Of a stretch of 64,000 nt of DNA, positions 25,198 to 47,686 are shown in pieces. The DNA comes from Natronorubrum tibetense GA33. Lineage in GTDB: Archaea; Halobacteriota; Halobacteria; Halobacteriales; Natrialbaceae. The stretch is taken from positions 3,014,265 through 3,078,264 of the forward strand of contig NZ_KB913017.1 of the NCBI RefSeq assembly GCF_000383975.1. Direction: 5' to 3'. The notes under the pieces were generated by a model. It was not told the DNA's origin and did no database searches. It saw only the letters and a list, made by a program, of their open reading frames with translations. A program made the position numbers and the translations under genes. Numbering within the stretch: the first letter of the stretch is position 1; each line of letters starts with the position of its first letter.

Positions 25198-26436
25198 ATG
25201 GGAGTCGATTACTCACGGCTGCGCGATCCGAACGCCGAATACACGATGCGTGATCTCTCGGCGGAAACGATGCAGGTCACCGGAGAGCGCGGCAACGGCC
25301 GGGACGTCGAAATCACGGATGTCCAGACCACGATGGTCGACGGCAACTTTCCGTGGACGCTCGTGCGAATCTACACGGACGCGGGCATCGTCGGTACGGG
25401 CGAAGCTTACTGGGGTGCGGGCGCGCCCGAACTCATCGAACGGATGACGCCGTTCCTCCAGGGGGAGAACCCGCTCGATATCGACCGGCTTACCGAGCAC
25501 CTCGTCCAGAAGATGTCGGGCGAGGGTTCGATCGGCGGCGTGACGATAACAGCCATCTCGGGCATCGAGGTCGCGCTGCACGATCTGGCGGGCAAAATCC
25601 TCGAGCTCCCCGCCTACCAGTTGATGGGTGGCAAGTACCGGGACGAGGTGCGGGTCTACTGCGACTGCCACACCGAGGAGGAAGCCGACCCCGTCGCCTG
25701 TGCCGAGGAGGCCGAGCGGGTCGTCGAAGAACTGGGCTACGACGCGCTGAAGTTCGACCTCGACGTGCCGTCTGGCCACGAGAAAGATCGCGCGAACCGC
25801 CATCTTCGGGAGCCGGAGATCGGCCACAAGGTGAGCATCGTCGAGGCGGTCACGGAGGCCGTCGGGCACCGTGCTGATGTCGCGTTCGACTGCCACTGGA
25901 CGTTCTCCGGCGGGAGTGCGAAACGCCTCGCGAAGGCCCTCGAGCCCTACGACGTCTGGTGGCTCGAAGACCCCGTGCCGCCGGAGAACCACGACGTGCA
26001 GCGCGAGATCACCCAGTCGACGACGACGCCGATCGCCGCCGGCGAGAACGTTTATCGTAAACACGGCCAGCGCCGACTCATCGAGAATCAGGCGGTGGAT
26101 ATCATCGCGCCCGACATGCCGAAAGTCGGCGGCATGCGAGAGACGGCGAAGATCGCCGACAAAGCGGATATGTACTACATGCCGGTCGCGATGCACAACG
26201 TCTCCTCACCGGTCGCGACCGTCGCGAGCGCCCACGTCGGTGCTGCAATCCCGAATTCTCTGGCCGTCGAGTACCACTCCTACGAACTCGGCTGGTGGGA
26301 AGATCTGGTCGAAGAGGACGTCATCGAGGACGGCTACATCGAGGTTCCCGAGGAACCCGGTCTCGGCGTGACCCTCGACATGGACGTCGTCGCGGAGCGG
26401 ATGGTCGACGGTGAGGAGTTGTTTGATGAATCATAA
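25198..26436 (+). CDS. gnaD: gluconate dehydratase (enolase superfamily), copy 1
   Basis: This 412-residue mandelate-racemase/enolase-superfamily enzyme is expected to dehydrate D-gluconate to 2-keto-3-deoxygluconate in the haloarchaeal semiphosphorylative Entner-Doudoroff pathway. The barrel shows KFDLDVPSG (catalytic Lys strand), metal ligands in VAFDCHW, WLEDPVPPE and AAGENVY, and the His in VAMHNVSSP. A paralog at 42914 is about nine-tenths identical in protein and lies beside glucose dehydrogenase and KDPG aldolase, which supports the role. D-xylonate or galactonate dehydratase are alternatives. The last codons and the stop lie inside the first hairpin of a repeat array. Confidence 0.85.
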   Translation: MGVDYSRLRDPNAEYTMRDLSAETMQVTGERGNGRDVEITDVQTTMVDGNFPWTLVRIYTDAGIVGTGEAYWGAGAPELIERMTPFLQGENPLDIDRLTEHLVQKMSGEGSIGGVTITAISGIEVALHDLAGKILELPAYQLMGGKYRDEVRVYCDCHTEEEADPVACAEEAERVVEELGYDALKFDLDVPSGHEKDRANRHLREPEIGHKVSIVEAVTEAVGHRADVAFDCHWTFSGGSAKRLAKALEPYDVWWLEDPVPPENHDVQREITQSTTTPIAAGENVYRKHGQRRLIENQAVDIIAPDMPKVGGMRETAKIADKADMYYMPVAMHNVSSPVATVASAHVGAAIPNSLAVEYHSYELGWWEDLVEEDVIEDGYIEVPEEPGLGVTLDMDVVAERMVDGEELFDES

Positions 26437-26515
26437 GATTCATCAAACTCGCTGAGCTCTGCTCAGCGTTGTTTGACGAGGCGTAAGCCGAAGTCAAGCC
26501 AGCAAATCTTCGATT
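26362..26515 (+). repeat. near-identical 154-bp tract shared by the two gnaD loci (copy A)
   Basis: From CTCGGCGTGACC in the last codons of gnaD through the stop and 79 bp of non-coding sequence, this matches 44078-44231 with a single mismatch (G at 26411 versus A), while the rest of the two genes differs at many synonymous sites. This looks like gene conversion or strong constraint. Confidence 0.85.
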
Positions 26516-26600
26516 TGCGCTGTTCGACGCGGCTCACGCCGCGTCGGGCTCGTGACTCTTCGATTCACGATGTTCGATTGAGCGAAGCGTGAATTGCCTC
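26418..26600 (+). repeat. ~50-bp-period hairpin repeat array after gnaD copy 1
   Basis: The word GTTGTTTGA, or a variant, starts units at 26418, 26468, 26519 and 26569 (spacings 50, 51, 50). Unit 1 holds an 11-bp perfect stem, arms 26422-26432 and 26437-26447, whose 4-nt loop ATAA contains the gnaD stop. It is followed by CGCTGAGC/GCTCAGCG. Unit 2 has GCAAATC/GATTTGC with a TTC loop. Unit 3 has a 9-bp stem CGACGCGGC/GCCGCGTCG at 26525-26546. Stem sequences differ between units but pairing is kept. Confidence 0.8.
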
Positions 26601-42913: not shown

Positions 42914-44152
42914 ATGGGAGTCGATTACACGCAGCTTCACGATCCGAACGCCGAGTACACGATGCGGGATCTCTCGGCGGAGACGATGAACGTGACCCGG
43001 GAGCGCGGCAACGGCCGGGACGTCGAGATCACGGACATCCAGACGACGATGGTCGACGGCAACTTCCCGTGGACGCTCGTGCGAATCTACACGGATGCAG
43101 GCATCGTCGGCACGGGCGAAGCCTACTGGGGTGCGGGCGCGCCGGAACTGATCGAGCGCATGACACCCTTCCTGCAGGGCGAGAACCCGCTCGATATCGA
43201 TCGACTCACCGAGCACCTCGTCCAGAAAATGTCAGGCGAGGGTTCGATCGGCGGGGTCACGGTGACGGCGATTTCGGGCATCGAAGTCGCGCTTCACGAT
43301 CTGGCGGGCAAGATCCTCGAGGTACCGGCCTACCAGCTGCTGGGCGGGAAGTACCGCGACGAGGTGCGGGTCTACTGTGACTGTCACACCGAAGACGAGG
43401 CGGATCCGATAGCCTGCGCCGACGAGGCCGAACGCGTCGTCGAAGAGTTAGGGTACGATGCGCTGAAGTTCGATCTGGACGTGCCGTCGGGCCACGAGAA
43501 GGACCGAGCCAATCGCCACCTCCGCGGCCCCGAGATCGAGCACAAGGCCTCGATCGTCGAGGCGATCACCGAGCGTGTCGGATCGCGCGCCGACGTCGCC
43601 TTCGACTGCCACTGGACGTTCTCGGGCGGGAGCGCGAAACGTCTCGCGAAGCGGCTCGAGGAGTACGATATCTGGTGGCTCGAGGACCCCGTGCCGCCGG
43701 AGAACCACGACGTCCAGCGGGCGGTCACGCAGTCGACCACGACCCCGATCACCGTCGGGGAGAACGTCTATCGCAAACACGGCCAGCGTCGGCTGCTCGA
43801 GGAGCAGGCCGTCGATATCATCGCGCCGGACATGCCGAAGGTCGGCGGAATGCGCGAAACCCGAAAGATCGCAGACCTGGCGGATATGTACTACGTCCCG
43901 GTGGCGATGCACAACGTCGCCTCACCCGTCGCGACGATGGCCAGTGCCCACGTCGGGGCAGCGATTCCGAACTCGCTGGCGGTCGAGTACCACTCCTACG
44001 AACTCGGCTGGTGGGAGGAGCTGGTCGAAGAGGACGTTATCGAGGACGGCTACATCGAGATTCCCGAGAAACCGGGGCTCGGCGTGACCCTCGACATGGA
44101 CGTCGTCGCGGAGCGGATGGTCGACGATGAGGAGTTGTTTGATGAATCATAA
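42914..44152 (+). CDS. gnaD: gluconate dehydratase (enolase superfamily), copy 2
   Basis: This 412-residue paralog of the gene at 25198 differs at scattered positions (for example SRLRD versus TQLHD near the N-terminus, KALEPYDV versus KRLEEYDI in the barrel) but keeps all enolase-superfamily ligands, VAFDCHW, WLEDPVPPE, TVGENVY and VAMHNVASP. It forms a run with glucose dehydrogenase and KDPG aldolase, so it is the better candidate for the main gluconate dehydratase. Its promoter carries a TACT-N8-AGTA palindrome absent from copy 1. The final codons ELFDES and the TAA form the start of a hairpin array identical at first to that of copy 1. Confidence 0.88.
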   Translation: MGVDYTQLHDPNAEYTMRDLSAETMNVTRERGNGRDVEITDIQTTMVDGNFPWTLVRIYTDAGIVGTGEAYWGAGAPELIERMTPFLQGENPLDIDRLTEHLVQKMSGEGSIGGVTVTAISGIEVALHDLAGKILEVPAYQLLGGKYRDEVRVYCDCHTEDEADPIACADEAERVVEELGYDALKFDLDVPSGHEKDRANRHLRGPEIEHKASIVEAITERVGSRADVAFDCHWTFSGGSAKRLAKRLEEYDIWWLEDPVPPENHDVQRAVTQSTTTPITVGENVYRKHGQRRLLEEQAVDIIAPDMPKVGGMRETRKIADLADMYYVPVAMHNVASPVATMASAHVGAAIPNSLAVEYHSYELGWWEELVEEDVIEDGYIEIPEKPGLGVTLDMDVVAERMVDDEELFDES

Positions 44153-44231
44153 GATTCATCAAACTCGCTGAGCTCTGCTCAGCGTTGTTTGACGAGGCGT
44201 AAGCCGAAGTCAAGCCAGCAAATCTTCGATT
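44078..44231 (+). repeat. near-identical 154-bp tract shared by the two gnaD loci (copy B)
   Basis: It matches 26362-26515 with one mismatch, covering the last 75 nt of coding sequence and 79 bp of non-coding sequence. Upstream coding sequence between the two genes is visibly more diverged. Confidence 0.85.
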
Positions 44232-44470
44232 AGCGTTGTTTGACGAGGCGTAAGCCGAAGTCAAGCCAGCAAATCTTCGATTTGCGTTGTTCGATTGAGC
44301 GAAGCGAAATCGAGCTCGGAAGACGAGTTTCGCGAGTCTTCCGTTGTTCGACTGAGCGAAGCGAAGTCAAACTCACAGAGCTTCGCTCTGGGTTGTTTGA
44401 CGAAGCGTGAGCTTCGTCAAGCTAGCAAATCTTCGATTTGCGTTGTTTGACGAGGCGTAAGTCGCGTCGA
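44134..44470 (+). repeat. ~50-bp-period hairpin repeat array after gnaD copy 2 (7 units)
   Basis: GTTGTTYGA starts units at 44134, 44184, 44235, 44286, 44343, 44392 and 44442 (spacings 50, 51, 51, 57, 49, 50). Each unit has a first hairpin opening TTYGA, often with a GTAA/GTGA/ATAA loop (perfect 10-bp TTGACGAAGC/GCTTCGTCAA in unit 6). A second hairpin usually has a TTC or TCT loop (CGCTGAGC/GCTCAGCG, GCAAATC/GATTTGC, CAGAGC/GCTCTG). Stems differ but their arms stay complementary. Unit 7 decays near 44470. Confidence 0.8.
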
Positions 44471-44666
44471 CGAACGTAACAGTTCAGCGAGTCGCCAGAG
44501 CAGGCCGGCGGCTCGGGGTTCTCGGGCGACGGTTTCGAGGGGGCACTGACAACAATCAAGGGGATACCGACAACGATCAGGAACACTCGCACGCGAACTG
44601 TACATCCTTCGAGAAAGTTCCAGACGCAAGACCGCCTGCATCCTCGAGATGGTGGTGCTGGGACGT
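44471..44666. other. intergenic remainder before htrA
   Basis: About 200 bp follow the hairpin array. No open frame on either strand has haloarchaeal coding character. The only signals seen are the htrA TATA box at its right end and short GC-rich stretches. Confidence 0.4.
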
Positions 44667-46492: not shown

Positions 46493-46929
46493 TGGGGATC
46501 TTCGCAGTCAAGACGACGGCGAGTCAAGAGCGCACCGTAGCAGACATGATCATCAACCGCGAGGAGCCCGAAATTCACGCTGCCCTCGCCCCCGACTCGC
46601 TGACCTCCTACGTGATGGTGGAAGCCGAGGGCAACGCGGTGTTGAACCGCGTGCTCGAGGACATCCCTCACGCCCGGAGCATCGTGCCCGGCGAGTCCGA
46701 CATCTCGGAGGTCGAGCACTTCCTCTCGCCCAAGCCGGACGTCGAGGGGATCGCCGAGGGCGACATCGTCGAACTCATCGCTGGTCCGTTCAAGGGTGAG
46801 AAGGCCCAGGTCCAGCGTATTGACGAGGGCAAGGATCAGGTAACCGTCGAACTGTACGAGGCGACGGTTCCGATTCCGGTGACGGTTCGCGGTGACCAGA
46901 TCCGCGTGCTGGATTCCGACGAACGGTAG
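46492..46929 (+). CDS. spt5: transcription elongation factor Spt5 (NusG family)
   Basis: The 145-residue factor has an NGN domain ([20 protein letters not shown] at the N-terminus, continuing to about residue 85) and a KOW domain at about 88-145 ([38 protein letters not shown]). With Spt4 it binds the RNA polymerase clamp and promotes processivity. It starts within the secE stop (TGATG). The last 16 residues ([16 protein letters not shown]) lie inside a 158-bp unit that is repeated in tandem downstream, so copies of the 3' end follow the gene but are not expressed as part of it. Confidence 0.95.
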
Positions 46930-47422
46930 TGAGTCGGTTCGCTCGGCGCTTCGCGCCGAGAGAGTTTTATACTAAATTTTGCAAGGAGTGGTGAGCGAAC
47001 GCCGTGAGCGAACCCGACGCAGTAAAATTTAGCCGCGTGACGGTTCGCGGTGACCAGATCCGCGTGCTGGATTCCGACGAACGGTAGTGAGTCGGTTCGC
47101 TCGGCGCTTCGCGCCGAGAGAGTTTTATACTAAATTTTGCAAGGAGTGGTGAGCGAACGCCGTGAGCGAACCCGACGCAGTAAAATTTAGCCGCGTGACG
47201 GTTCGCGGTGACCAGATCCGCGTGCTGGATTCCGACGAACGGTAGTGAGTCGGTTCGCTCGGCGCTTCGCGCCGAGAGAGTTTTATACTAAATTTTGCAA
47301 GGAGTGGTGAGCGAACGCCGTGAGCGAACCCGACGCAGTAAAATTTAGCCGCGTGACGGTTCGCGGTGACCAGATCCGCGTGCTGGATTCCGACGAACGG
47401 TAGTGAGTCGGTTCGCTCGGCG
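46881..47422 (+). repeat. 158-bp tandem repeat array, 3 full units plus a 68-bp partial
   Basis: GACGGTTCGC begins units at 46881, 47039, 47197 and 47355, an exact period of 158; the three full units appear identical. Each holds the last 16 codons and stop of spt5, a CGGCGC-TTC-GCGCCG hairpin, a TATA-like TTTTATACT, and the inverted pair TAAATTTT/AAAATTTA about 50 bp apart around two GTGAGCGAAC words. The first unit overlaps the real spt5 end. The final partial unit breaks off after GCTCGGCG. Confidence 0.92.
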
Positions 47423-47437
47423 TGGTCGTCAGGAGAG

Positions 47438-47577
47438 CGGCGAGAACGCGTTTCACTGAATTTATGCGAAGAATGGATACTGAGCGGAGCGAAGTACCCC
47501 GAAAACGAAATATCTAACCGAGTGACGGTTCGTTGGGACCAGATTTCCGTCTTGAATTCCCACGAGCGAAACCAAGT
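47438..47577 (+). repeat. degenerate older copy of the 158-bp unit
   Basis: GTGACGGTTCGTTGGGACCA, starting at 47522, continues with a diverged version of the spt5 3' end (VTVRWDQISVLNSHERN in translation). It is preceded by a diverged spacer (CGTTTCACTGAATTTATGCG, then GAACGAAATATCTAACCG-like sequence). It shows that this locus was amplified before the present identical copies arose. Confidence 0.65.
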
Positions 47578-47686
47578 CGGTTCACGAGTCGGTTTTCGTT
47601 ACCCGTCCTCTCGGGCCAGTTCCCCAACGGTCAGCCGAACCGGCAACTGGCCGACGGCTGTTCGAGCATGTTCTTTGGCGGCCGAT

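Follow-up and report, generated by a model that had tools for sequence, protein, structure and literature searches.

What is the regular series of short hairpins that follows one of the two gnaD genes of Natronorubrum tibetense GA33, and why do its stems differ in sequence from unit to unit and still keep their pairing? The array is located in a window of 64,000 nucleotides, by which we designate the whole stretch of DNA that was analysed, and was originally described as seven copies of the word GTTGTTYGA at nearly constant distances, most of them heading a pair of hairpins. The original prediction proposed a folded RNA, a DNA cruciform or a self-propagating palindrome, and took the array to be probably transcribed, with a possible effect on mRNA ends. 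Here we describe the anatomy of the units, their distribution in haloarchaea, their pairing and their turnover, and we weigh the explanations that can be offered for them.

Anatomy of the units

Each unit starts with a segment of ~18 nt, designated T, which comprises the last codons and the stop codon of the host gene. T is followed by its inverted copy (T'), a linker of 2-3 nt, and a second hairpin, typically of 7 pairs with a 3-nt loop (7-3-7 geometry). T and T' pair to form hairpin 1, which carries the stop codon in its loop. Tandem arrays are composed of 1 to 6 units and are usually closed by a bare T. The features of the window are the following (positions in the window).

25198 to 26436, + strand: gnaD copy 1, protein 91% identical to that of copy 2, same ending
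26418 to 26595, + strand: array of copy 1, with units at 26418, 26468 and 26519 and a partial T at about 26570
42914 to 44152, + strand: putative gnaD copy 2, 412 aa, ending E-L-F-D-E-S-stop, Pfam domains MR_MLE_C and MR_MLE_N
Final 19 nt of gnaD copy 2, + strand: first T of the copy 2 array
44134 to 44480, + strand: array of copy 2, six units of two hairpins each and a partial T, from repeat calling and a fold z-score of -10.3
44134 to 44183, + strand: unit 1, hairpin 1 GTTTGATGAATC(ATAA)GATTCATCAAAC with the gnaD stop codon TAA in the loop, hairpin 2 GCTGAGC(TCT)GCTCAGC
44184 to 44234, + strand: unit 2, T GTTGTTTGACGAGGCGTAA (L-F-D-E-A-stop), one pair of hairpin 2 broken (GCAAATC/GATTAGC)
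44235 to 44285, + strand: unit 3, like unit 2 but with a perfect hairpin 2, GCAAATC(TTC)GATTTGC
44286 to 44342, + strand: unit 4, 57 nt, longer hairpin 2 (GGAAGAC...GTCTTCC)
44343 to 44391, + strand: unit 5, T reading L-F-D-stop, hairpin 2 CAGAGC(TTC)GCTCTG
44392 to 44441, + strand: unit 6, hairpin 1 TTGACGAAGC(GTGA)GCTTCGTCAA, hairpin 2 GCAAATC(TTC)GATTTGC
44442 to 44480, + strand: partial unit, T alone (L-F-D-E-A-stop), then unique sequence

The domains of copy 2 are those of an MR_MLE-type sugar-acid dehydratase. Its designation as gnaD is putative and based on context and name; NCBIfam equivalogs score below their cut-off. The window gnaD is 98% identical to that of N. texcoconense. Tandem Repeats Finder described the copy 2 array as 5.4 copies of a 51-nt period with 73% match. 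The word GTTGTTYGA occurs at 44134, 44184, 44235, 44286, 44343, 44392 and 44442 (spacings 50, 51, 51, 57, 49 and 50), exactly as first listed, and five of the six full units fold into two consecutive hairpins when taken in isolation, in line with the earlier description. The stems quoted there are also present, with three corrections: the broken pair of unit 2, the longer second hairpin of unit 4, and a seventh unit that consists of its T part only. As had been recognized, the array begins within the last codons of gnaD, which form the first T. What had escaped notice is the second array, behind gnaD copy 1, whose first unit is identical to that of copy 2, and the fact that GTTGTTYGA is no free-standing motif: it is the ending of gnaD itself, (GA)G-TTG-TTT-GAY-GAR-GCG-TAA, which in unit 1 reads (GA)G TTG TTT GAT GAA TCA TAA (E-L-F-D-E-S-stop). 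The later units, which lie downstream of gnaD and are untranslated, mostly repeat L-F-D-E-A-stop or L-F-D-stop.

Distribution in haloarchaea

A first covariance model, built from the six units and searched in ten genomes of the window's genus, gave strong matches at gnaD 3' ends only and weak ones at other genes. In the genome of the window, all nine strong matches (E≤1e-4) fall in the two gnaD arrays. A second covariance model has matches in 79 of 145 genomes and in 38 of 58 genera of the class, and comparison with the gnaD coordinates places nearly all of them at gnaD 3' ends. Units of at least 28 bits are present at 35 of the 79 gnaD loci of the class, and array carriers are found in Natrinema, Halobiforma, Natronococcus, Halogranum, Haloprofundus, Halorussus, Halorientalis, Salinigranum and Haloferax. 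The inspected matches outside gnaD include genes for the Fe-S subunit of type II DMSO reductases, two genes ending L-F-E-R-L-stop and a DNA polymerase B gene ending A-F-D-stop; two gnaD-type units are located 2-6.5 kb downstream of gnaD. The suspicion that similar elements exist in other haloarchaea was thus justified, and the expected covarying matches are numerous, but they mark the end of essentially one gene and not the 3' ends of many. That the units might occur only here, with no covariation beyond chance, is contradicted by the class-wide matches and by the analysis described below.

Pairing, covariation and strand bias

The whole copy 2 array folds far more stably than its dinucleotide shuffles, with z-scores of -10.3 for the sense and -7.4 for the antisense RNA. 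In an alignment of 133 distinct units, standard pairs occupy 93.0% of the paired cells (78.5% after shuffling) and the covariation score is 0.420 against 0.166 for shuffled units, none of 500 shuffles reaching the observed score; when the pairing partners were slid, covariation dropped to 0.05-0.09. A test with 55 units had a similar outcome. Because these two alignments had been fitted to the structure, the pairing test was repeated without a fitted alignment on the 17 nt preceding the next T: six or seven of the 7 positions of hairpin 2 pair in 36 of 51 units, compared to ~21% for arms mixed between units. Compensatory change of the stems above chance, as originally claimed, is thus confirmed in both ways. 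Since the hairpin arms change together across many genera, the folding of the unit is probably under selection.

The original prediction left RNA and cruciform side by side. On the sense strand, G-U pairs exceed A-C pairs by 21 to 6 in the enlarged alignment-free set (p 0.006, from few and related sequences), and a U.G pair is retained in hairpin 1 of 101 of 132 units. A preference for G-U is expected neither of a DNA cruciform nor of a strand-neutral palindrome, and with one stem position being a U.G wobble in most units, the cruciform becomes less likely than the RNA. The p-values for pairing and for G-U overstate the case because the sequences are related to each other.

A bias is also found within the coding sequence. 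The terminal leucine codon is TTG in 24 of 35 array-bearing gnaD genes and in 6 of 44 others (p 6e-7), and TTG is a rare codon which accounts for 4.7% of the leucine codons of the gnaD genes compared. Because TTG is enriched at this position in the carriers, the coding end is either under constraint at the nucleotide level or was imported along with the unit.

Arrays between the genes of a DMSO reductase family

The second family of host genes encodes the Fe-S subunit of type II DMSO reductases (TIGR03478), which ends V-F-D-D-A/E-stop. When 30 orthologues were sorted by eye and by the start position of the next gene, the order T, T', hairpin, T, or a version of it in which the T copies enclose other hairpins, was present in about 17 and absent in about 13. 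Without an array, the ATG of the next gene lies mostly within the last codons of the Fe-S gene, at -8 to -14 when counted from the last base of the stop codon; with an array, the next gene starts inside the last T, at +35 to +404. The array separates genes that otherwise overlap, and T provides the stop codon of the upstream gene and the start of the following one. The overlap of the reading frames suggests that the Fe-S gene and its neighbour form one transcription unit, and if they do, the array must be transcribed, because the pair spans it.

These arrays bear on the idea that the array is the transcription terminator of gnaD, for which its stable hairpins at the 3' end of a gene might be taken. 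In Haloferax volcanii, 503 termination sites were found to be preceded by hairpins, and a hairpin that was put to the test ended 59% of the transcripts; in the consulted passages of that report (PMC7237163) such hairpins appear as a general class of haloarchaeal 3' hairpins near termination sites, with no tandem two-hairpin unit described. The U-rich tract of archaeal intrinsic terminators is absent from the arrays, in which the longest T-runs are 2-4 and never exceed 4, with mostly none within 200 nt beyond. Since U-tracts are lacking and the DMSO reductase array lies between genes that overlap in array-less genomes, termination is a very improbable function, and insofar as it implies termination, the earlier proposal of an array that sets mRNA ends loses support.

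Gain, loss and movement of units

On a gnaD tree of 79 tips, presence and absence of the array require 23 changes, compared to 26 for shuffled labels. Haloferax larsenii and H. elongans differ at this locus by exactly one unit of 53 bp, with flanks that are 97% identical and identical gnaD proteins in the sequences compared, and strains of Natronococcus differ by entire units. As the number of changes on the tree and the Haloferax difference show, units come and go quickly. Recombination between T copies could account for the loss and expansion of units, and their import could result from exchange among the gnaD genes of different species. The T of the 53-bp Haloferax unit (..GAGGAGTGA) is not the same as the T that the unit displaced (..GAGGCGTAA), and the unit is therefore no simple copy of local sequence. 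That the local gene end was simply duplicated in tandem was rejected as a full explanation, since the displaced T is not identical to the T of the unit in H. elongans, G001 and G007.

The filled and empty Haloferax sites, with their exact difference and nearly identical flanks, are what would be expected of a palindrome that is mobile or selfish, akin to a MITE or a REP, and whose insertion into gene ends around GTTCGA duplicates the target, the RNA structure being a by-product or serving mobility as single-strand DNA. The patchy presence on the gnaD tree, the recurrence of the anatomy at unrelated genes with similar terminal codons and, in one genome (L321), gene-sized DNA between gnaD-type units are also in its favour, and dispersed repeats of two and three hairpins, which another family of the phylum carries away from gene ends, fit such an element as well. 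The genome of the window, however, has units at just two loci, T and T' follow the codons of each host gene, which a fixed element would not do, and the retained U.G in hairpin 1 together with the G-U bias favours an RNA. We regard a mobile element as possible, though doubtful. With MITEs and minisatellites the units share their palindromic nature, the filled and empty sites and the variable copy number; T flanks the unit and T' is its inversion, which recalls a target-site duplication with terminal inverted repeats, but there are no fixed terminal repeats, and arms, length and sequence follow the host gene. In L321 (genome G040), the DNA between the two gnaD-type units contains a substrate-binding-protein-like and a thioredoxin-reductase-like gene, as if inserted into the array.

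A related and rather unlikely possibility is a host-templated palindrome, that is, an archaeal process of recombination or replication which places direct as well as inverted copies of a gene's last codons and stop around a hairpin that can be exchanged. By such a process an invaded gene would receive an element matching its own sequence and keep its end, and where two genes overlap, the start codon of the next gene would be preserved.

Own-genome controls covered 2.4 Mb in stretches with 1925 ORF-called genes. Among these genes, hairpins centred on stop codons show neither excess nor peak at the stops, and a general haloarchaeal habit of placing stop codons in hairpin loops was rejected. Duplications spanning a stop codon are no more common in this genome than duplications of 3' regions in general, which led to the rejection of a special stop-codon-duplicating mechanism. 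As neither stop hairpins nor stop duplications are in excess, the gnaD array is exceptional and not an instance of a genome-wide habit. The same equality of duplications would be expected if the array were a minisatellite devoid of function, in which duplications across the stop codon are tolerated outside the gene and template-switch correction of quasi-palindromes keeps the arms complementary. The ends of the Spt5, ileS and argF genes are likewise tandemly duplicated, and some arrays are near-perfect repeats (L256, L341, L353). Such an origin predicts neither the class-wide recurrence at the same few genes nor the constant unit length and 7-3-7 geometry, nor the biases for G-U over A-C and in codon use, and the Haloferax unit, whose T differs from the displaced one, is no simple local duplication; we consider a minisatellite unlikely.

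Comparison with known systems and possible role

Several known systems were compared with the units. The core boxes of integron attC sites are GTTRRRY and RYYYAAC, and attC was rejected because GTTGTTY has pyrimidines at positions that require purines. A CRISPR array was discarded, as the variable parts are palindromes common to several genera and not unique, non-palindromic spacers between near-identical repeats. A known Rfam family was also dismissed, the best match, RefA5, reaching 17.9 bits against a gathering cut-off of 91. No element of this anatomy was found in Rfam or in the searched literature, which was mostly that outside subscription journals.

The REP and BIME elements of bacteria are palindromic repeats tagged with GTAG and CGTC and located, for example, between malE and malF (PMC3733652). 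They resemble the units in being short tandem palindromes placed just past stop codons or between cistrons, stem-loops without U-tract, and patchy between strains; the extragenic 3'-end or intercistronic position applies to the units as well, although unit 1 overlaps the coding end. In contrast to REPs, which are many per genome, gnaD-type units occur at one or two loci, and the nine strong matches of the window's genome, all confined to the two gnaD arrays, do not amount to many dispersed copies. A GTAG or CGTC tag is not consistently present at the foot of the palindromes, the feet being GTTG or GNNG and CGTC occurring inside some arms only. The units further differ in containing the last codons and stop of their host gene and in having stems that vary between units and covary. 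By tag and number of loci, then, the units are not REPs, but in their action they may be REP/BIME-like. In E. coli, protective hairpins are often located in the coding end, lack U-tracts and stabilize the upstream gene (PMC5927463). The units share with them the stable hairpin in the coding end, at a cistron boundary and without U-tract; the E. coli structures are single, whereas the units, for which a similar role is proposed, are in tandem with constant period.

Against this background, we give about even chances to the interpretation that the array is a haloarchaeal gene-end hairpin repeat which is read through in the mRNA and whose stem-loops serve to protect, or to mark, the upstream cistron at its 3' boundary. 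The array would be part of the gnaD mRNA and, in the DMSO reductase family, would sit between two genes of one mRNA. Its stem-loops, starting in the last codons like the protective structures of E. coli and especially those of malE-malF, may protect or mark the boundary or take part in its processing, and may in this way set the level of the upstream cistron, as REP/BIME do for E. coli malE. Protection or processing is favoured because U-tracts are lacking, the position is intercistronic and the likeness to the E. coli structures is close; the recurrence of the same anatomy within an apparent DMSO reductase operon was also counted in support of stem-loops acting in mRNA. Counted against them were the near-random presence of arrays and the derivation of the G-U excess from few related sequences. 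Because presence on the gnaD tree is near-random and many orthologues lack an array, any function must be dispensable. Haloarchaea may degrade mRNA by an RNase R-type enzyme that passes structures, which weighs against protection.

If the stem-loops do act in mRNA, the units would represent, across this archaeal class, an equivalent of the REP-type stem-loops that is associated with a respiratory operon and with a key enzyme of sugar degradation. Species pairs that naturally differ in the presence of units, for example H. larsenii and H. elongans, offer a direct test of whether the units influence the stability of the mRNA and the stoichiometry of the operon, and the element allows compensatory evolution, codon choice and rapid turnover to be followed together.

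Similar repeats at other loci

In the genome of the window, a similar anatomy with unrelated T was found at an isocitrate dehydrogenase-like gene (C1:1220207-1221512) and at a rhodanese-like gene (C1:1765407-1766328). A possible further example in genome G000 (C1:2235623-2236793, - strand) consists of the gene end GTGATCGCGTGA, its inverted copy, a CCAGCGC/GCGCTGG hairpin and GTGGTCGAATGAGCGG, which contains the beginning of the gene that follows. At the 3' ends of dnaK in genomes G003 and G006 (L046, L047), the last codons and stop are followed by an inverted copy, a GCGAATCTTCGATTCGC hairpin and the last codons again. The GCGAATCTTCGATTCGC hairpin is also located in the apparent right ends of IS605/TnpB-type elements (L071, L073, L078, L082), two copies of which are in the window's genome.

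A search with hairpin 2 only (GCRAATCTTCGATTYGC) outside gnaD led mostly to unrelated contexts, namely IS605/TnpB ends, dnaK ends and a four-hairpin family. In this family the constant words GGTTCGAAAG..GTCATC..GGACCTC..CTCAGTCACGAGAG..CGAACGACAG join the hairpins and both stem arms vary between copies; it occurs in several haloarchaeal genera (G000 C1:487339 and C1:1015913, designated L076 and L077; L048, L316, L318, L319). The dispersed repeats of two to three hairpins in the other family of the phylum (GTTACGAAGCCTTGCTTCGTAGCTCACAAATCTTCGATTTGTGATG; L360-L363 in G158 and G167) are not located at gnaD, and their second hairpin differs very little from the one in the gnaD units.

Within the window, positions 46879-47583 contain 3.4 copies (100% identity, period 158) of the end of an Spt5/NusG-like gene together with a hairpin and an AT-flanked element (TAAATTTTGCAAGGAGTGG...CCCGACGCAGTAAAATTTA), and one further diverged copy. 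An element of the same kind, ATTTTT..GAGTGG..CCCGA..AAAAA, also follows ileS and argF in this genome, in each case flanked by copies of the last codons of the host gene.
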